Shown here: positions 27,483 to 43,041 of the stretch, piece after piece
Layout: each line of letters begins with the position of its first letter
How positions within the stretch are numbered: position 1 is the first letter of the stretch
Source: Bacillota bacterium
Lineage (GTDB): Bacteria; Bacillota; Clostridia; Peptostreptococcales; Acidaminobacteraceae
Reading direction: 5' to 3'
Assembly: GCA_030529225.1 (NCBI GenBank)
Contig: JAUMXH010000002.1
Span: forward strand, 62,001-126,000
DNA: 64,000 nt
The notes under the pieces: model-generated
The model's database searches: none
The model's input: only the letters and a program-made list of their open reading frames with translations
Told to the model about the DNA's origin: nothing
Translations under genes and position numbers: made by a program

Positions 27483-28106
27483 TTAGAGGGAGTTTCGCAT
27501 CGCCTCTCTCAGTTCGGAAACGGCAAGGCTCGCGTCTTCGGCCTGCATAATTGCCGAAACCACGCAGATTCCGGTGATCGGAGACCCCTTCAGAATCTCC
27601 AGGTTGTCCTTGTTCAGGCCGCCGATCGCGTAGACCGGAATGTTCACGGCCTCGCAGATTTGATTCAGGGTTGAAACCTCGGTTCTGACCGTCACGACCT
27701 TGGTCGTGGTCGGGTAGATCGCCCCGACTCCCAGACAGCTCGCGCCCTCTCTCTCAGCCTCCAGGGCCTGTTCCACGGTCTTGGCGGTCGCGCCCACCAT
27801 GCTGCCTGCGGGCAGGAGCTCTCTCGCGTAGCGAATCGGGATGTCGCTTTGGCCCAGGTGGACATGGCAGCCCGCTATCATCGCGATGTCAATCCGGTCA
27901 TCAATGAAGAGGGGGGTCTCGTAGCGATCCGCGATCTCCTTCACCTTTTGGGTCAGGGCGAGCAGCTCCCGATCCGAGCGCATCTTCTCGCGCAGCTGCA
28001 ACAAATCGACGCCCGCCTTGCAGACCTCTTCGACGCGCTCCAAAAAGGCGTCCTCACTCATGCCGCTGCTGTCCGTGATGAAGTACAGTTGTTTCTCTTG
28101 ACTCAT
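27483..28106 (-). CDS. thiE: Thiamine phosphate synthase
   Basis: 207 residues, TIM barrel. Substrate and phosphate motifs include LQLREKMRSDRELL, the GATAKT loop and GVGAIYPTTTK. It couples HMP-pyrophosphate with hydroxyethylthiazole phosphate to give thiamine phosphate. I start at ATG 28106, where GGAGAT lies 7 bp upstream and the ATG overlaps the thiM stop by 4 bp (ATGA). The longer frame adds 21 residues that are thiM sequence in another frame. It is the last gene of the operon; a terminator follows. Confidence 0.94.
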   Translation of the reverse strand: MSQEKQLYFITDSSGMSEDAFLERVEEVCKAGVDLLQLREKMRSDRELLALTQKVKEIADRYETPLFIDDRIDIAMIAGCHVHLGQSDIPIRYARELLPAGSMVGATAKTVEQALEAEREGASCLGVGAIYPTTTKVVTVRTEVSTLNQICEAVNIPVYAIGGLNKDNLEILKGSPITGICVVSAIMQAEDASLAVSELREAMRNSL

Positions 28107-28951
28107 TTTGATCTCCTTTCCCAAGTTGCGAGGCGTTCCAAATCCCCATCTTCCAGTATGCTGATGCAATCGATCAGATGGAGCTCAAAGGACATGGAGC
28201 CCAAGGGCGCCTCCCCTGCGATCGAACACCTTTCTTCGGCCAGTTCTCCCGAGACGCCCATGACCACGCAGCCGCAGAGGGCGGCCTCGATCGGCTTGGA
28301 AGCGGGAAGGTAGGACGCGATCAGTGTCGTCAGCATGCAGCCGGTTCCGGTGATGGAGGAGAGCAGGGGCGTGCCGTTCTTCACCAGGTAGCTCTCTTCT
28401 CCGTCCGAGAGGATGTCGATCTTGCCGCTCCCGACCGCGACCGCGCCGGTCTCCCGGGCCAGGCGCCTGACAATCGCGATCGATTCTTCCAAATTCTCTT
28501 CTTTTACCCGGTCTTCCGCCCCGACATCGACGCCGGCGGCATGGGAGTCCAGGCCGAGCATGGTCTTGATTTCGGACATATTGCCCTTGATGACGGAAAC
28601 GGATTCCCCATCCGCCAGTGTCCTTGCGAGCTCCAGGCGCAGCGGACTGACGCTGATTCCCACGAGGTCTAAAATAATCGGAATTCCGTTTTCCGAGGCG
28701 ACCCGCGCCGATCGCTGCATGGATTCCATCCGCGCATCGGTGATGTTTCCGAGATTCAGCGCCAAGGCTTTGCTTCGCCCGGTGATGCCCTCGACCTCGA
28801 GCGGGTGCTCCGCCATGATCGGCGAGGCCCCGACCGCGAGCACGGCGTTCGCGCAGTTCTTGATCGAAATCGGGTTGGTGATGCAGTGAATCAGCGGTTT
28901 ATTTTCCTTCGTGTGCTTCCTTATAGCGGAGAAGGCTCTTTGAACTTTCAT
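28103..28951 (-). CDS. thiM: Hydroxyethylthiazole kinase
   Basis: 282 residues. Family blocks are PLIHCITNPISIKNCANAVLA near the N-terminus, GNITDARMESM and the ribokinase-like SSITGTGCMLT with the catalytic cysteine/glycine loop. It phosphorylates salvaged thiazole alcohol for ThiE. The start (ATG 28951, GGGAG 9 bp upstream) lies inside thiW: the two genes overlap by 53 bp in different frames. The N-terminus up to PLIHCIT is of normal length, so the overlap seems real. Confidence 0.94.
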   Translation of the reverse strand: MKVQRAFSAIRKHTKENKPLIHCITNPISIKNCANAVLAVGASPIMAEHPLEVEGITGRSKALALNLGNITDARMESMQRSARVASENGIPIILDLVGISVSPLRLELARTLADGESVSVIKGNMSEIKTMLGLDSHAAGVDVGAEDRVKEENLEESIAIVRRLARETGAVAVGSGKIDILSDGEESYLVKNGTPLLSSITGTGCMLTTLIASYLPASKPIEAALCGCVVMGVSGELAEERCSIAGEAPLGSMSFELHLIDCISILEDGDLERLATWERRSK

Positions 28952-29462
28952 ATGAATGTACTCCCAGTTTGCATTGGATTTTGTAAAGCAGGCCGTTGGC
29001 TCTGAGGGTGTTCAGGAAGAGGAAGGCCACCGATCCGCCCATTAAAGTCGCGAGGACGAAAGACGGAACGTAGAACATCCAAGTCAGGCCGGTCTTGCCG
29101 TAGAGCAGGGTCATGACCGGGTAAGAGACGATCGAGCCGATGAAGCCGGTGCCGATGATTTCTCCGAGCACGGCCGCCCAAATTTTTCCGTTAGACAGTT
29201 TGTAAAATACGCCGGATAAAAAGGCGCCAAAGACAGCTCCGGTGATCGCGAGCGGCGGAATTCCCATCACGCTCATGCGGATGATGGCGATGGTAAAGGC
29301 ATTCAGAAGCGCATACCATGGCCCTAAAAATACGGCCGCCACGATGTTGACCAGGTGGGCGGTGGGACAAAGGCCTTCGACCCTCAGCAACGGGCTGATG
29401 ACGACACCGATGGCGACAAACATCGAAAGTGTCACCATTCTCAATAGATTTGTTTGTTTCAT
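28899..29462 (-). CDS. thiW: ThiW family thiazole/thiamine precursor transporter (ECF S component)
   Basis: 187 residues, about five or six hydrophobic segments. The conserved core CPTAHLVNIVAAVFLGPW identifies ThiW. By family it is the substrate-binding subunit of an energy-coupling-factor importer, predicted to take up the thiazole moiety used by ThiM; the shared EcfA/EcfT genes are not here. The ATG at 29462 is preceded by GGAGGG 5 bp upstream. That ribosome site is also part of a possible switch hairpin in the leader. An in-frame extension upstream would run through the leader and is rejected. Confidence 0.9.
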   Translation of the reverse strand: MKQTNLLRMVTLSMFVAIGVVISPLLRVEGLCPTAHLVNIVAAVFLGPWYALLNAFTIAIIRMSVMGIPPLAITGAVFGAFLSGVFYKLSNGKIWAAVLGEIIGTGFIGSIVSYPVMTLLYGKTGLTWMFYVPSFVLATLMGGSVAFLFLNTLRANGLLYKIQCKLGVHSYESSKSLLRYKEAHEGK

Positions 29463-29627
29463 AGGTTCCCTCCAAACCGTCGCGACACCGCTCGAAGGAA
29501 ACCAAGTAGCGCGCGAACATACACAAGTCGGTCGAAACTTACAGTTTCCTCTCACCCTGTAACACAGGTTCCCTCGCTACTTTATTTACGGTAAACAAGG
29601 CGCTCCCCAGGCTTACCACACATTCCA
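29463..29627 (-). ncRNA. Structured leader RNA of thiW-thiM-thiE, candidate translational switch
   Basis: About 165 nt of leader. An 8-bp stem pairs 29575-29582 with 29504-29511 and encloses two small hairpins (29564-29568 with 29556-29560, and 29543-29548 with 29534-29539). Just 3' of the stem, 29494-29503 (GGTTTCCTTC on the - strand) can pair over 10 bp, including two G-U pairs, with the ribosome site GGAGGGAACC (29464-29473). The same segment can instead pair with an identical GAGGGAACC copy at 29567-29575 inside the junction, which would disrupt the stem. The conserved TPP-riboswitch strings CUGAGA and the UCUGGAUAAU region are absent, so the class is unassigned. Confidence 0.6.
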
Positions 29628-29633
29628 ATGCAC

Positions 29634-29661
29634 AGTATAGCACAAAGTCGCGAAAATGCAA
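29634..29661 (-). promoter_or_regulatory. Sigma-A promoter of the thi operon
   Basis: On the - strand TTGCAT (29661-29656), 16-nt spacer, TATACT (29639-29634), with TG one base before the -10. Transcription would start near 29627. It is divergent from the femX promoter. Confidence 0.7.
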
Positions 29662-29693
29662 GAAAAAATTGCCCTCGCCCGCACGCCCGCAGC

Positions 29694-29722
29694 TTGACAT
29701 CGGAATTTTTATTACCTATAAT
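29694..29722 (+). promoter_or_regulatory. Consensus sigma-A promoter of the FemX-like gene
   Basis: Perfect TTGACA (29694-29699), 17-nt spacer, perfect TATAAT (29717-29722), about 45 bp before the ATG at 29766. Confidence 0.85.
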
Positions 29723-29765
29723 AAGACCGTATTTGTGCACAGAAAGGGAAGATAAGGGGACGAGT

Positions 29766-30833
29766 ATGCCGCTATTAACAAACCATCCGGAAAAAAGAGA
29801 AGACTACGACAGATTTATGCAGGAGGCCCTCCTTCCGAACATCCTGCAGGCCGGGGCCTGGTCTGCAGTCAAGGACAACTGGGGCAGCGAGCGGATTTAT
29901 GTGGAAAAAGACGGAAAGATTGTCGCGGCGGCCTCCCTTTTGATCAAGCGCCTGCTCGGCCAGACCCTGCTCTACTCGCCGAGGGGCTTTGTGGTGGCAC
30001 CCTTTGATGCCAAGGAGACTTCGATTGAAACCGAACACTTTGAGGGGGAGCGGGCCGAGAACCTGAAGGCGCTGATTGCCGAAATCGACGCCTACGCGAA
30101 GTCGGTCGGTGCCTACTCCCTTGCGATCGACCCCGAGATTGCCAAGGGGGACGCCTCGGAAGACTTCATCCGGTCGCTCGGGTTCAAACAGGAAAAGGAC
30201 CCGATGAGCTTCATTCAGCCCCGCTACCTGGCTTGGCTCGACATCCAAAAGAGCGACGAGGAGCTGATGGCCTTTTTCAGCTCCAAGACCCGCTACAACA
30301 TCAAGCTCGCGGAAAAGAAGGGCGTCTATGTGAAGGAGCATGGGATAGATGCGATTCCCGTGTTTTTTGAGCTCCACAAAATCATGGCCAAGCGAAACGA
30401 CATCGCCATCCGCGGGGAGGACTATTACTACAAGCTGATGAACACCTTTCCGGATTCGAGGGTCTTTATCGCCTACCACGAGGAGGAGCCGCTGGCGGCC
30501 GCAATCCTGATCAACTACTGCGGAACCGCTTGGTACGCTTACGGTGCGAGCTCCAACAGCAAACGAAACTTCATGCCGAACCAGCTGATGCAGTGGGTGA
30601 TGATTCAGTGGGCAAAGCAGCGGGGCGCAATCCGCTACGACTTCGGCGGCTTCTTTTACATTGACCCTGAAGACGGGCTCTACCGCTTTAAATCGGGCTT
30701 TACCGGAAAGGAAAACAACGTGGAACTGATCGGGGAATACGAGAAGGTCTACAAGCCGTTGGTCTACGCCTTCTTCAGCAAGGCGCTGCCGCTAGGATCC
30801 AAGCTTCTGAAGTTCATCAACCGGCGAAAGTAA
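29766..30833 (+). CDS. FemX/FemAB-family peptidoglycan interpeptide bridge enzyme
   Basis: 355 residues with the two GNAT-like subdomains of the FemABX family. Recognisable blocks are GAWSAVKDNWG and LYSPRGFV near the N-terminus, and LMQWVMIQWAKQRGAIRYDFGG and YRFKSGFTG near the C-terminus. These enzymes transfer an amino acid from aminoacyl-tRNA to the lysine (or equivalent) of lipid II at the cytoplasmic membrane face. The residue added cannot be read from sequence. The ATG at 29766 fits the consensus promoter and an AGGGGA ribosome site; 46 extra upstream residues overlap the promoter and are rejected. Confidence 0.88.
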   Translation: MPLLTNHPEKREDYDRFMQEALLPNILQAGAWSAVKDNWGSERIYVEKDGKIVAAASLLIKRLLGQTLLYSPRGFVVAPFDAKETSIETEHFEGERAENLKALIAEIDAYAKSVGAYSLAIDPEIAKGDASEDFIRSLGFKQEKDPMSFIQPRYLAWLDIQKSDEELMAFFSSKTRYNIKLAEKKGVYVKEHGIDAIPVFFELHKIMAKRNDIAIRGEDYYYKLMNTFPDSRVFIAYHEEEPLAAAILINYCGTAWYAYGASSNSKRNFMPNQLMQWVMIQWAKQRGAIRYDFGGFFYIDPEDGLYRFKSGFTGKENNVELIGEYEKVYKPLVYAFFSKALPLGSKLLKFINRRK

Positions 30834-31097: not shown

Positions 31098-34000
31098 ATG
31101 TTTAAGAACAGATTCATCAGATCGTTATTTGCAGTAGCGCTCGCGCTCAGTCTGCTTTTACCGAGTATCCCTTTGCAAGCGGATACCAAAAAGGAGATCA
31201 CCCTGCGTGGCAGCAGCTACGGGTTTACAAAAATCGCTCGATTTACCCTTACAAACTTTGATGAGGTAAACAGCGTGACCGGAGTCAAGGTAAATGACAA
31301 ATCGTACCGGAAGGTGGACAATCAGGATAGCTTGCAGGAAGACGAAACTTACTTCCTAAATGACACTGATCCCCAAGTTATGCTTCGGAATTTGAAAAAC
31401 GGAGACAAGGTCGAGTTATTCACGAAGGACGGATTCCTGCACATCGATATCAACAATATTGACGCCTATTTTGGCGGAATCCACAATAAAAGAACCCTGA
31501 AGTTCACCTTCTATGAGGACTCTTCGAACGGGGGAGATGCAGGTAATCCGGGAGAGGGCGGAAGCCCGGGAGACAGCGGTAACCCGGGAGATAACGGCGG
31601 TTCGGGAGATAACGGAACGCCGGAGCAACCGGGCGGCAATCAGCTCATCATACATTTGAAGCCGATCAGGCAGTTCAGCAACTTCCACATCGAATCGGAT
31701 GTCAATTTGAACGGAAAGATAAGTTCGCTGTCGGTCAACCATGTCGCCTATGAGTTGGTGACGAGTTCCTACATGGCCTGGTACCCGCAAAAGTACTATA
31801 TTGACGGGCGAAAGATTCATTTGTCCGAATTGGAACATGAGGATGTTTTAAGTCTTGTAGACCTCGACGGAAACACCCACAGTTTTGTGTATAAGAAGGT
31901 AGGCTCGAACGTCTCGTTGGAAGCGATTGCCGAGGCTCCGAAACCGAAGCGTCTCCAAGTTCGCATTCGGGGATCCTTTGAGGCCGCGATGGAAAACCAG
32001 AAGGGCTATGATGCGATTTCAGGAGCCACTTCCGGCGGAGCGATAGATAACCAAAACAGCAATGTGAAGGTGGAGGTCTTTGAAGGCGACAATCCGGAGG
32101 AATCGGACTGGAAGCCGCTCCATGAAAGCAAGGTTAAACAAAAGAAACTCACTCTGATTTTGGATGCGGAGTCGGGCATGGAGCCGGTCTATAACAACTT
32201 GACCTCTGCACTGACCTTGAGGGGGACCCCGAAGAAGGCCGGAAAATACAAGGTGAAGGTGATCTTGGAAGAGGTCGGCGGAAGAACGGCGGAAAGCAAC
32301 GAGCTTCCTTTTCATGTGTATGACTACAATGAACTGTTGATAGACCACTTTAAGGTTGAGAATGCCAAGAAGATGCAGGACGGAAAATACATCTGGGATA
32401 TGGAACCTTGGGTGATACAAAAGTTCGGCGGCGAACAGGAAAGCGTCTTGGCACCGAAGGAGATTAAGGCATGGTTCGGATCTCACAAGAGCGGAACCTA
32501 CGGAGAACTCGGAACGTCCGTGCACGGAGAGCCGACCCAGACGCTCATCATAGGAGAGGGAACAAATTTAACCCTGGTCAATATGAAGATTTTGAGCAGT
32601 GTTAAGATTCTGGTCAAAGACGGCGGCGTCCTGAACCTGATGGATTCTTCTCTGCACGGCAAGGTGGAAGTGAGGGACGGCGGAATCTTGCAGGTAAACT
32701 ATGATGCGCACAAGGGCAAGTTCCTGACGGGTTCTTCGATCAACGGACAGGTGGAGCTCAAGGATGGAGCGATTCTTGAGAATTCCCTTCTTTATTCAAA
32801 CACCAATTACCTGGCGAACGGTGAACTGGTGAGACAGAACGTAAACCCTGTCGTGAAAATCAGCGGCAAGGTCAGAATAAACGGAAAGGTTTTTGTAAAA
32901 GGAGATGAGGCTCCCGGCGGGATAGATCCGAATACCGGAAAGTCTTACAAGGGACAGCCTGCCCTGGGTCTGGAAGAAAATGCGGAATTGGAACTTCTAA
33001 AAGATGCCGTTCTGGGACTCTACGGGGGAGGAAAGACCCACCTCAGCACGCAGGGAGGAGCAGCGCTTCTTTTGGCCGGCGGCTCAACGGTGAGCGGAGA
33101 GGGTTCATTGATCGCCATCCCGGGCAACACCGTGTACGGAGACGGATCGGTGGCTGTGGAAGGTAGCGGAACCCTCGCGGCGAAGCAACTTTACATCCAG
33201 GGAGGAAATACGCATGACAAAAAAGCGAAGGGCGGAAAGCCTCTGGGAGAAACGGTAAAGGTGGACATGCGTGTGGAACCGGTCGGAAAACTCTTGGAAG
33301 GGAAGGCGGGAGCCGGTCAGGTAATCGATGACCAGCCGCGCTACTGGCAACTGATTCTGACTCCGCCGGACTACGAATATTTAAAAGAACAGGAAAATCA
33401 GCAGCCGATCACATGGAAGCCTACTGAGGAGAACGGGGGCAATGCGGGTGACAACGGCGGAAGCGTCGGAGACAATGGCGGAAGCGCCGGTAATAACGGC
33501 GGCAATGCAGGCAATAATGGCGGCAATGCCAATTCCGGAAACGCCGGAAATCCGCCGAGCCAAGACACAGGAAATGCAAACAACAGCGGAAACCACTCGA
33601 TTATCAGCGATTCGGGAAGCACCGGAGGGTCGGGATCCTTCGTGCCGTCAAGGCCTGCGCCGAAGAAAGACGGCAATTCGGACGTGACGATCCAAGATGC
33701 CGCGACGCCGCTTTCCGCATCGGAAAAAGCTTTGAAAGAAGAGCTGGAGGGGCTTACGATAGCGGAGCATGACAGGAAGTTGATTGAGCGGCTCCTTCTG
33801 AAAGAAATCGGGAATGCAGCCTTTGCAAGAGAAATCTCCGAGGACGCACTGCGCGAGTATGCAAAGACGGTGAACAAGGTCTTTGCGGACGAGTCGGAAG
33901 CCTCGTGGTATGCGAAGGAGCTCAGCGCAATGCGCCTCATGAAACTCATGCAGGGGTATGAAGACGGAACGATGCGCGCAGAGAACCCGATTACGGGAAA

Positions 34001-34391
34001 AGAATACGTGACCATCCTTGTGCGAGCGGGCGCTTGGGAAATCGAGAAGGTCGATGGCGACTGGTTTGCGCCGTACCTCAAGGTGGCGAGCGAGAAAAAA
34101 CTCCTGGATCAAATCGAGTTTGATTTGAGCAAGCAACTGAGCAGGGAGGAAATAGCGGCCTTGTCGTATAACTTTGCCAAAATCCATCCCGCATTTCAGG
34201 ACGTAGCCGAAAAGAGCGCGACCCTTACGGACGGGGACTTGATTGACAATCGTTATAAAGAAGCGGTCAAACACCTGTTTAACAGGGAGGTTTTGAAAGG
34301 AAATCCGGATGGAGCGTTCGCGCCGAAGCAGGCAGTCAAGCGGGCCGAGGTGCTGGCGATTGTATACCGATTGCTCGCGACTTCCAAGTAG
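31098..34391 (+). CDS. Large exported surface protein with C-terminal SLH domains
   Basis: 1097 residues. A signal peptide (about 1-29, ending SIPLQA) is followed by a globular region, a Gly/Asn/Pro linker (about 145-177), and a second region (about 180-400) with an Ig-like stretch. A beta-helix-like region (about 480-760) is built of short repeats such as GGVLNLMDSSLHGKVEVRDG. A second Gly/Asn linker lies near 778-830. The last 200 residues are SLH-like; the clearest unit contains EVLKGNPDGAFAPKQAVKRAEVL near the end, while the preceding unit (YEDGTMRAENPITGKE) is more diverged. SLH domains bind pyruvylated secondary wall polymer. The ligand or function of the exposed part is unknown. Its own promoter and terminators make it monocistronic. 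Confidence 0.9.
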   Translation: MFKNRFIRSLFAVALALSLLLPSIPLQADTKKEITLRGSSYGFTKIARFTLTNFDEVNSVTGVKVNDKSYRKVDNQDSLQEDETYFLNDTDPQVMLRNLKNGDKVELFTKDGFLHIDINNIDAYFGGIHNKRTLKFTFYEDSSNGGDAGNPGEGGSPGDSGNPGDNGGSGDNGTPEQPGGNQLIIHLKPIRQFSNFHIESDVNLNGKISSLSVNHVAYELVTSSYMAWYPQKYYIDGRKIHLSELEHEDVLSLVDLDGNTHSFVYKKVGSNVSLEAIAEAPKPKRLQVRIRGSFEAAMENQKGYDAISGATSGGAIDNQNSNVKVEVFEGDNPEESDWKPLHESKVKQKKLTLILDAESGMEPVYNNLTSALTLRGTPKKAGKYKVKVILEEVGGRTAESNELPFHVYDYNELLIDHFKVENAKKMQDGKYIWDMEPWVIQKFGGEQESVLAPKEIKAWFGSHKSGTYGELGTSVHGEPTQTLIIGEGTNLTLVNMKILSSVKILVKDGGVLNLMDSSLHGKVEVRDGGILQVNYDAHKGKFLTGSSINGQVELKDGAILENSLLYSNTNYLANGELVRQNVNPVVKISGKVRINGKVFVKGDEAPGGIDPNTGKSYKGQPALGLEENAELELLKDAVLGLYGGGKTHLSTQGGAALLLAGGSTVSGEGSLIAIPGNTVYGDGSVAVEGSGTLAAKQLYIQGGNTHDKKAKGGKPLGETVKVDMRVEPVGKLLEGKAGAGQVIDDQPRYWQLILTPPDYEYLKEQENQQPITWKPTEENGGNAGDNGGSVGDNGGSAGNNGGNAGNNGGNANSGNAGNPPSQDTGNANNSGNHSIISDSGSTGGSGSFVPSRPAPKKDGNSDVTIQDAATPLSASEKALKEELEGLTIAEHDRKLIERLLLKEIGNAAFAREISEDALREYAKTVNKVFADESEASWYAKELSAMRLMKLMQGYEDGTMRAENPITGKEYVTILVRAGAWEIEKVDGDWFAPYLKVASEKKLLDQIEFDLSKQLSREEIAALSYNFAKIHPAFQDVAEKSATLTDGDLIDNRYKEAVKHLFNREVLKGNPDGAFAPKQAVKRAEVLAIVYRLLATSK
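31530..31633 (+). repeat. Low-complexity GGA/GGT repeat coding the first Gly/Pro linker
   Basis: Imperfect tandem 15-18-bp units coding (N/S)PG(D/E)(N/S/G)GG. It separates two exported domains of the SLH protein and is a plausible slippage or recombination site. Confidence 0.7.
33432..33550 (+). repeat. Low-complexity GGN repeat coding the second Gly/Asn linker
   Basis: Tandem imperfect 21-bp units coding (A/S)G(D/N)NGGN, located just before the SLH region of the same gene. The unit length is a multiple of three, so copy-number change would preserve the frame. Confidence 0.7.
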
Positions 34392-41475: not shown

Positions 41476-43041
41476 ATGGATAAAAAAAAGACAGTAAAAA
41501 CAATCAGCTATGTGATGATGCTCAGCCTTGTGGGCAAACTGATGGCTCTTTTCAGAGAGGTTATGCTGGGAAGAGCCTACGGCACAGGCATGGAGGCAAA
41601 CGCCTTCCTGGCCGCCAGTCGAATCCCCAGGGTATTTTTTGATGCCATTTTTGCCTCGGCAATCACGATGAGTTTCATCCCCATCTTCAGTAAGTATATG
41701 AAACAGGGCGGTAAGGAGAAGGCCTTTGAGTTCTCGAATGTCTTTGTCACCTACATCTGCCTGTTTACCATCGTGTTTTCGATATTCGGAGCCTCGTTTT
41801 CCGATTTTTTTGCGGTTCTTTTTGCGAACAAATTTCCGCAGGAAACCTTGGAGCTCTGTTCCAAACTGCTCAAAATCCTCTTTCCCACTATGATATTTAC
41901 CGGAATCGCCTTCAGTTTTGTGGGCATCCTGCAATCTCTTGAAAATTTTTTGGTGCCGGCCATCATCAGCGTGGTCTTTAACGGCATCATCATCGCCTAT
42001 TTCTTTGGTCCGGTTTCAACTTGGGGCATCTACGGCCTCGCGGTCATCTATGTGATCGCTTGGCTGATGCAGGTCCTGGTGCAGGTTCCCTCCCTACATA
42101 GGAACGGGTATCGCTTCCGACCGAGCTTGAGCCTGAAGAGCGGCTATATGAAGGAAGTCGGGGTCCTCCTCCTTCCGGTCATGCTCAGCACCTGGGTGCA
42201 GCCGTTCAACTTCTTCATCAACACCAAGTTTGCCTCGGGTTTTTATGAGGGCTCCGGCACTTCGGCGATGGAATACTCGAACAATCTTTACACGATGATT
42301 ATCGCGATCTTTGTGCTCTCGGTCATGAACGTGGTCTTTCCAAGGCTTTCCAAACTCATCAACGATGACGATATGGAAGGGGCGGAAAAGCTCACCGGAG
42401 AGACCCTGGGAATCAGCCTGATCTTTGTGATTCCGATGATGATCGGCATCATGCTGCTCAGCACGGAGCTGGTGAGCCTGGTCTTTGGCGGAAACGAGTT
42501 CGACGCGTTTTCAATCAAAATCACCTCCTATTCCCTCTTCTACTTTTCCTTGGGGATGATCGGCTACACCTTCCAGAATGTGCTCTCTCGGGTTTACTTT
42601 GCCGCGAGACAGACCAGGGTGCCGGTGATTGGAGCGGTGATTGCGATTGTCGCGAACTACCTGCTCTGCATCCCGCTTTCACAAAAGATGGACATCGGGG
42701 GGCTGGCGCTGGCCTCGTCCATCTCGGTCTTCATCAACGGGCTGGTGCTGATGCTCCCGCTCTTAAAAAAGGAAAAACAGGTTTTTGACAAGGATTTCTT
42801 TGTCGACCTTGTAAAAATATCCGTCTCGTCTGCGGCCATGGGCTTCTTCCTGTACTACATGAAGGCGCCCGTCTTTTCGCTCCCGGTGCAGGGTTTGCCC
42901 GGAGATATCCTGAAGATTCTGCTGCTGGTTGCCCTGTCGGTACTCGTCTACGCGGTGCTGATCATCCTGTTTAGAGTCAGACACGTCAGGACGATGATGG
43001 AAGTGTTAAACATGAAAAAGAGAGGTAGAAATGAAGTTTAA
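41476..43041 (+). CDS. murJ: Lipid II flippase MurJ
   Basis: 521 residues, about 14 transmembrane segments, MOP exporter superfamily. The N-terminal signature SLVGKLMALFREVMLGRAYGTG...ANAFLAASRIPRVFFDAIFASA is typical of MurJ/MviN, including the conserved arginines. It moves lipid-linked peptidoglycan precursor across the membrane. Its end overlaps the start of the DUF5693 gene by 11 bp, so translation is coupled. Some family members flip other undecaprenyl-linked sugars, and the pairing with DUF5693 makes that an alternative. Confidence 0.9.
   Translation: MDKKKTVKTISYVMMLSLVGKLMALFREVMLGRAYGTGMEANAFLAASRIPRVFFDAIFASAITMSFIPIFSKYMKQGGKEKAFEFSNVFVTYICLFTIVFSIFGASFSDFFAVLFANKFPQETLELCSKLLKILFPTMIFTGIAFSFVGILQSLENFLVPAIISVVFNGIIIAYFFGPVSTWGIYGLAVIYVIAWLMQVLVQVPSLHRNGYRFRPSLSLKSGYMKEVGVLLLPVMLSTWVQPFNFFINTKFASGFYEGSGTSAMEYSNNLYTMIIAIFVLSVMNVVFPRLSKLINDDDMEGAEKLTGETLGISLIFVIPMMIGIMLLSTELVSLVFGGNEFDAFSIKITSYSLFYFSLGMIGYTFQNVLSRVYFAARQTRVPVIGAVIAIVANYLLCIPLSQKMDIGGLALASSISVFINGLVLMLPLLKKEKQVFDKDFFVDLVKISVSSAAMGFFLYYMKAPVFSLPVQGLPGDILKILLLVALSVLVYAVLIILFRVRHVRTMMEVLNMKKRGRNEV

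Follow-up and report, generated by a model that had tools for sequence, protein, structure and literature searches.

TPP riboswitches form the most widespread riboswitch class, and their reading of the ligand by two arms is the textbook case: in the solved structures the HMP ring is held by the UGAGA strand and the pyrophosphate by P4/P5. Another riboswitch, the HMP-PP riboswitch (thiS motif), controls thiW and other thiazole genes and often lies directly behind a TPP riboswitch; its small aptamer does not resemble that of TPP and is embedded in a terminator stem (PMC6478431). Finally, a 2022 review from the Breaker laboratory mentions, citing unpublished findings, that thiamin or thiamin phosphate is the preferred ligand of some RNAs grouped with the TPP riboswitches (PMC9481103).

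The window, the whole 64-kb stretch of DNA analysed here, contains on its minus strand the genes thiW-thiM-thiE preceded by a leader of approximately 165 nt (29463-29627). The features of this region are the following.

29634..29661, minus strand: sigma-70-like promoter TTGCAT-16-TATACT (consensus match only), transcription start near 29627
29590..29617, minus strand: HP0, a covarying, conserved hairpin GGUAAGC/GUUUACC with inner GG/CC and loop GGAGCG
29575..29582, minus strand: 5' strand of P1, AAGUAGCG, with the near-invariant sequence GCGA
29530..29573, minus strand: TPP-type pyrimidine-sensor half (P2, P3, UGAGA, P3a)
G29573-C29530, G29572-C29531, then G29571.A29532, A29570.G29533, minus strand: P2
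29564-29568/29556-29560, minus strand: P3
29550-29554, minus strand: UGAGA strand
29543-29548/29534-29539, minus strand: P3a
29512..29529, minus strand: 18 nt without conserved sequence where the pyrophosphate-sensor arm P4/P5 would be
29504..29511, minus strand: 3' strand of P1, CGCUACUU, partner of 29575..29582
29464..29503, minus strand: expression platform, a 14-bp anti-SD:SD hairpin (29490-29503/29464-29477) over GGAGGGAACC, before the thiW ATG (29462)
28899..29462, minus strand: thiW, ECF S-component for thiazole uptake (PF09512, E=5.9e-44)
28103..28951, minus strand: thiM, hydroxyethylthiazole kinase (PF02110, E=1.8e-59)
27483..28106, minus strand: thiE, thiamin phosphate synthase (PF02581, E=7.8e-52)

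The original prediction had described the promoter (29661-29634), the closing stem, now P1, and two small hairpins within it. All of these are indeed present: the eight pairs of the stem are all standard, and the hairpins are GAAACU/AGUUUC and CCUGU/ACAGG. It had also reported the TPP motif CUGAGA as absent; the leading C is altered, but UGAGA itself is in place (29554-29550). HP0, which had been overlooked, is the most diagnostic feature of the leader. The leader folds more stably than its own shuffles (z -3.24). The core structure was taken from comparison and single-sequence folds were left out for it; P2 and P3 of the comparative model were not recovered by single-sequence folding of the leader. 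Beside the thiW promoter begins a divergent gene of the FemAB family (PF02388, 9.3e-49; window 29628-30833, plus strand), whose true start probably lies downstream of the first ATG, at 29628, and at 31098-34391 (plus strand) there is a gene encoding a secreted protein of 1097 aa that has Gly/Asn/Asp-rich repeats and, at its C-terminus, a stretch which is SLH-like by eye.

At curated thresholds, Rfam has no match anywhere in the 64-kb window. In a permissive search of Rfam 15, the leader matches one model only, RF00059 (TPP), over the full length of the model (1-105), with 15.6 bits (E=1.3) against a gathering cut-off of 54.3, and the leader thus falls below every Rfam threshold. In this alignment the model is matched by the 5' half of the aptamer but not by the P4/P5 half. 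This agrees with the originally proposed strongly diverged TPP switch, as the sub-threshold match is full-length and the pyrimidine-sensor half is kept; the leader is still a riboswitch candidate with a translational platform. Across the 58 related loci scanned, Rfam made no TPP calls at the positions of the variant. Since no Rfam model reports the element, current genome annotation misses it.

Relatives of ThiW were taken from public genomes (67 loci) and their upstream DNA was read; in all, 102 distinct related leaders were collected. A block common to most of the closer relatives reads AGGGG(G)AGCGCC(C)U ... GCGA(U)GGGANCYYGUGUU...RRGNUGAGAGG...CCGACCG. In all 102 leaders the pyrimidine-sensor half (P2, P3, the UGAGA joining strand and P3a) is kept, P4/P5 is absent and HP0 is present. 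In a 47-row alignment, standard pairs occupy 95.6% of cells, compared to 33-50% in controls with slid partners, and 16 of the 19 pairs change on both sides. Such changes occur in all eight pairs of HP0 (A1 columns 8-31), in all four of P3 and in four of five in P3a; the two P2 pairs are invariant throughout. The spacing of P1 is variable, and this helix was tested apart from the alignment: its score is 19.8 with own partners, 13.5 with swapped partners and 13.0 with shuffled ones. The positions of P1 show A-U, U-A, G-C and C-G types, although the helices were picked per sequence and these data are biased upward. Conservation and covariation across homologous leaders, by which the original prediction was to be checked, are thus seen for P1, P3, P3a and HP0 and favour a structured RNA. 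Judging by this comparison, the leader is a real, conserved structured RNA and appears to be a diverged TPP aptamer rather than an isolated oddity.

The likeness to RF00059 includes P1, P2 with GGGA.../...GACC, P3, the UGAGA joining strand and P3a, as well as the control of thiamin genes by an anti-SD or terminator platform. UGAGA between P3 and P3a/P2 is kept in 96 of 97 variants. The differences were assessed against canonical aptamers drawn from the same loci as the variants. Firstly, the P4/P5 arm of RF00059 with CUGGAUAAU...AGCGUAGGGA is absent from 102 of 103 GCGA-GGGA cores; its place is taken by a variable hairpin or loop, in the window by 18 unrelated nucleotides. Secondly, of 87 canonical aptamers 85 have G-C as the P3 closing pair beside UGAGA, compared to 17 of 97 variants; in the variants this pair is A.G (50, including the window), G.U (21), G.C (17) or G.A (4). 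Thirdly, the first P2 pair is G-C or C-G in canonical aptamers, but A.G or U.G in the variants. Finally, unlike RF00059, the variant has a conserved GCGA ahead of GGGA and the added HP0. By these features the element seems to work like a TPP-type riboswitch, yet it lacks some of those that define membership in RF00059.

HP0 precedes all 102 cores without P4/P5; in 97 cases it was found by pattern and in five by eye, the latter having the loop GAGC closed by stems of the CAAG/CUUG type. Among 4640 random stretches of 200 nt, 117 contain the same pattern. HP0 was seen in none of the 115 canonical TPP aptamers compared. The hairpin is located outside P1, upstream of GGGA by a median of 36 nt and a maximum of 128 nt, and GAGC in its loop is invariant. 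In three cases (the L055 leader, L225 and L226) the loop is CGAGCA or CGAGCG, where the central GAGC is kept and the flanking G.G is replaced by C.A or C.G, which suggests a candidate non-canonical loop-closing pair.

A covariance model was built for the element; it scores the Clostridia copies at 67-94 bits and canonical TPP riboswitches at 52 bits at most. With this model the element was found in 18 of 391 Clostridia genomes and, at E<=1e-10, in 50 of 250 Negativicutes genomes (scores 51-97). In the low-scoring Negativicutes copies that were checked, HP0 is still present, farther upstream. Two of 296 genomes of the class of Holdemanella contain the element, and none was found in 148 genomes from the phylum of a Desulfobacterales record (L114) in a search run without a positive control. 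The range of the related leaders comprises Clostridia, Negativicutes and a few Bacilli.

The first gene after the element is nearly always thiW, encoding the thiazole transporter. In Clostridia the genes are thiW-thiM-thiE-thiD, with cytX or thiC in some cases. Second copies in Negativicutes precede genes either for a PhnD/PhnE-type (PhnDCE-like) ABC transporter or for a protein that combines AIRS and ThiN domains. The PhnD-like lipoprotein follows the second copy in L192-L197, L201-L203, L205 and L207-L209 and, where checked, is accompanied by an ATPase and a PhnE-type permease; the current annotation is phosphonate uptake. This system is likely to be a transporter of a thiamin-pathway compound, perhaps a phosphorylated one. 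In L198 and L206 the first gene encodes a 530-aa fusion of AIRS (ThiL/HypE-like) and ThiN (thiamin phosphate synthase), and is followed by genes for an MFS transporter and then an M20 amidohydrolase. The genes under candidate control centre on the uptake of thiazole and the synthesis of thiamin phosphate.

The genome of the window has two copies of the element, the leader described above and one before another thiW, and two canonical TPP riboswitches. The second copy (L222, G000:C26:119000-124904) precedes a second, divergent thiW, and its 5' neighbour is an operon of an NMT1/THI5-like ABC transporter, itself behind a canonical TPP riboswitch. By Pfam, ThiC was not found in this genome, and ThiG has only a weak, partial ThiG-like match; thus the organism probably depends on precursors obtained by salvage.

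Most Clostridia have a complete TPP riboswitch, or in some cases two of them, just before the element. In at least 34 of the loci examined, from Clostridia and of the Holdemanella type, the element comes directly after a canonical TPP riboswitch, usually with a terminator behind the latter. Four loci (L076, L078, L083, L086) have a triple tandem of two canonical TPP riboswitches, then the variant element, then thiW. As the TPP riboswitch upstream is complete in most Clostridia, it and the element probably sense different ligands. In Negativicutes the element usually stands alone, and this argument does not apply to them.

In the window leader, the anti-SD at 29494-29503 can pair over 10 bp with 29464-29473, and the ribosome-site 10-mer AGGTTCCCTC is repeated, at 29463 and 29566, both as noticed before; the 10-mer also has a third occurrence in the window, at 42083. 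The original prediction made of this a switch in which one anti-SD chooses between two partners. With the inner copy, however, the anti-SD forms 9 bp, not 10, and this pairing is worse than P1 with anti-SD:SD by approximately 20 kcal/mol in the full leader and by approximately 5 in shorter transcripts. The inner "copy" GAGGGAACC is the aptamer consensus, and the repeat is not kept at the Shine-Dalgarno boxes of the nearest homologues, L053 (GGAGGUAAAAC) and L054 (GGAGGUUAAA); conservation of this specific anti-SD pairing was not seen in the homologues. It was therefore rejected as the logic of the class, although it may contribute in the genome of the window.

A terminator-like hairpin with a U-run lies 3' of P1, without overlapping it, in 26 of 27 leaders, and the anti-SD:SD pairing is better than in shuffles in 26 of 50. 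The pairing of the P1 3' strand with the anti-SD or terminator arm far exceeds 40 shuffles in L053, L054, L073 and L188; as read from the sequence, the anti-SD of L054, UUUCUAAAUAG, can either mask CUAUUUGGAGG or base-pair with CUAUUUAG of P1. The alternative of P1' with the anti-SD was rejected as a general rule, as it beats shuffles in just 6 of 50 leaders (p 0.23 in the window). When P1 was forced in a thermodynamic test of 61 leaders, access to the Shine-Dalgarno box decreased in 11 and increased in 12. Control would quite probably be ligand-OFF, because the terminators sit 3' of P1 and are compatible with it, which is the layout of ligand-OFF switches, the P1 3' strand rivals the anti-SD/terminator pairing in the four leaders above, and anti-SD:SD beats shuffles in 26 of 50.

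On balance, we favour a cis-acting riboswitch derived from the TPP aptamer, with a ligand that would carry the HMP ring and would probably not be TPP, and which would shut off thiW-thiM-thiE. To the observed structure, conservation, gene context, tandem arrangement and platform geometry, the following scheme adds a ligand, a direction of control and a role of HP0 that we infer. Descent from the TPP aptamer would have kept the pyrimidine-ring pocket (P2, P3, UGAGA, P3a), lost P4/P5 and gained HP0, a 5' hairpin that may dock on the core. Binding of the HMP-ring compound would stabilise the core and the closing stem P1; once this stem is formed, the anti-SD downstream of it would be free to silence thiW-thiM-thiE, and in other species the terminator 3' of P1 could form. 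With no ligand bound, the P1 3' strand could pair with the anti-SD or the terminator arm, freeing the gene.

The retained pocket together with the loss of P4/P5 points to an HMP-ring compound without the pyrophosphate of TPP, or to one held differently via HP0. Thiamin or thiamin phosphate, the latter being the product of ThiE, is the best single guess, albeit a tentative one; HMP phosphates are unlikely, and some other compound is less likely still.

An alternative is that the element still senses TPP, HP0 being a substitute grip for phosphate or Mg2+ and the tandems merely sharpening the TPP response. The pocket with UGAGA is intact, HP0 is invariantly tied to the core, AGCG of its loop is also part of the canonical J5-4 strand CCAGCGUAGGG (a likeness of sequence only), and TPP-TPP tandems are known (PMC9481103). 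However, systematic changes affect the first P2 pair and the pair that closes P3 next to the pocket, HP0 lies outside P1 and up to ~128 nt from the core, and triples of two TPP riboswitches and a TPP variant would be oddly redundant. We consider sensing of TPP unlikely.

Sensing of HMP, HMP-P or HMP-PP, with thiazole salvage turned on under ample supply of the pyrimidine partner and low TPP, would follow the logic of the thiS motif. The target thiW and the place behind a TPP riboswitch match that motif (PMC6478431), and the pyrimidine pocket is retained while the pyrophosphate arm is gone. Yet the compatibility of terminators or anti-SD hairpins with P1 (26 of 27) fits ligand-OFF rather than ON, and this reading too has a low probability. 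Unlike the thiS motif, the element has its core upstream of, and separate from, the terminators, and the window leader has no U-run after the SD hairpin.

The thiazole HET or HET-P, suggested originally, could explain why the thiazole transporter gene thiW is nearly always the first gene; a thiazole-only ligand is disfavoured, as the retained pocket is the pyrimidine sensor, reading that ring in TPP, and members before AIRS-ThiN or thiD/thiC are not thiazole-specific, which makes it very improbable. Decay into a TPP riboswitch without ligand binding, as the lost defining domain and a Rfam score far under the cut-off might suggest, hardly comes into consideration, because near-invariant loops and strong covariation across classes (50 of 250 genomes of Negativicutes, 18 of 391 of Clostridia) would not survive in a decayed copy.

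No published description, structure or model of the HP0-bearing form without P4/P5 was found in the open-access literature. The Breaker-laboratory variants, compared by description only, are similar in being derived from TPP riboswitches, with altered specificity and possible TPP tandems (PMC9481103); they are RNAs currently classed as TPP, whereas copies of the element never reach the TPP threshold in the loci scanned. They may include or neighbour the present group, which would then be partly known. We lean slightly towards a separate class: derived from TPP riboswitches without the pyrophosphate arm, with a recruited external hairpin and another thiamin-pathway ligand, and forming two- or three-input gates with canonical TPP riboswitches before thiazole-salvage operons.

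If this is true, a natural one-armed relative of the TPP riboswitch with a new hairpin would show directly how an aptamer changes specificity. Gut and rumen bacteria would have an additional logic gate in the salvage of vitamin B1, and concrete predictions would follow, one of them being transport of a thiamin-pathway compound by the linked PhnDCE-like transporter.
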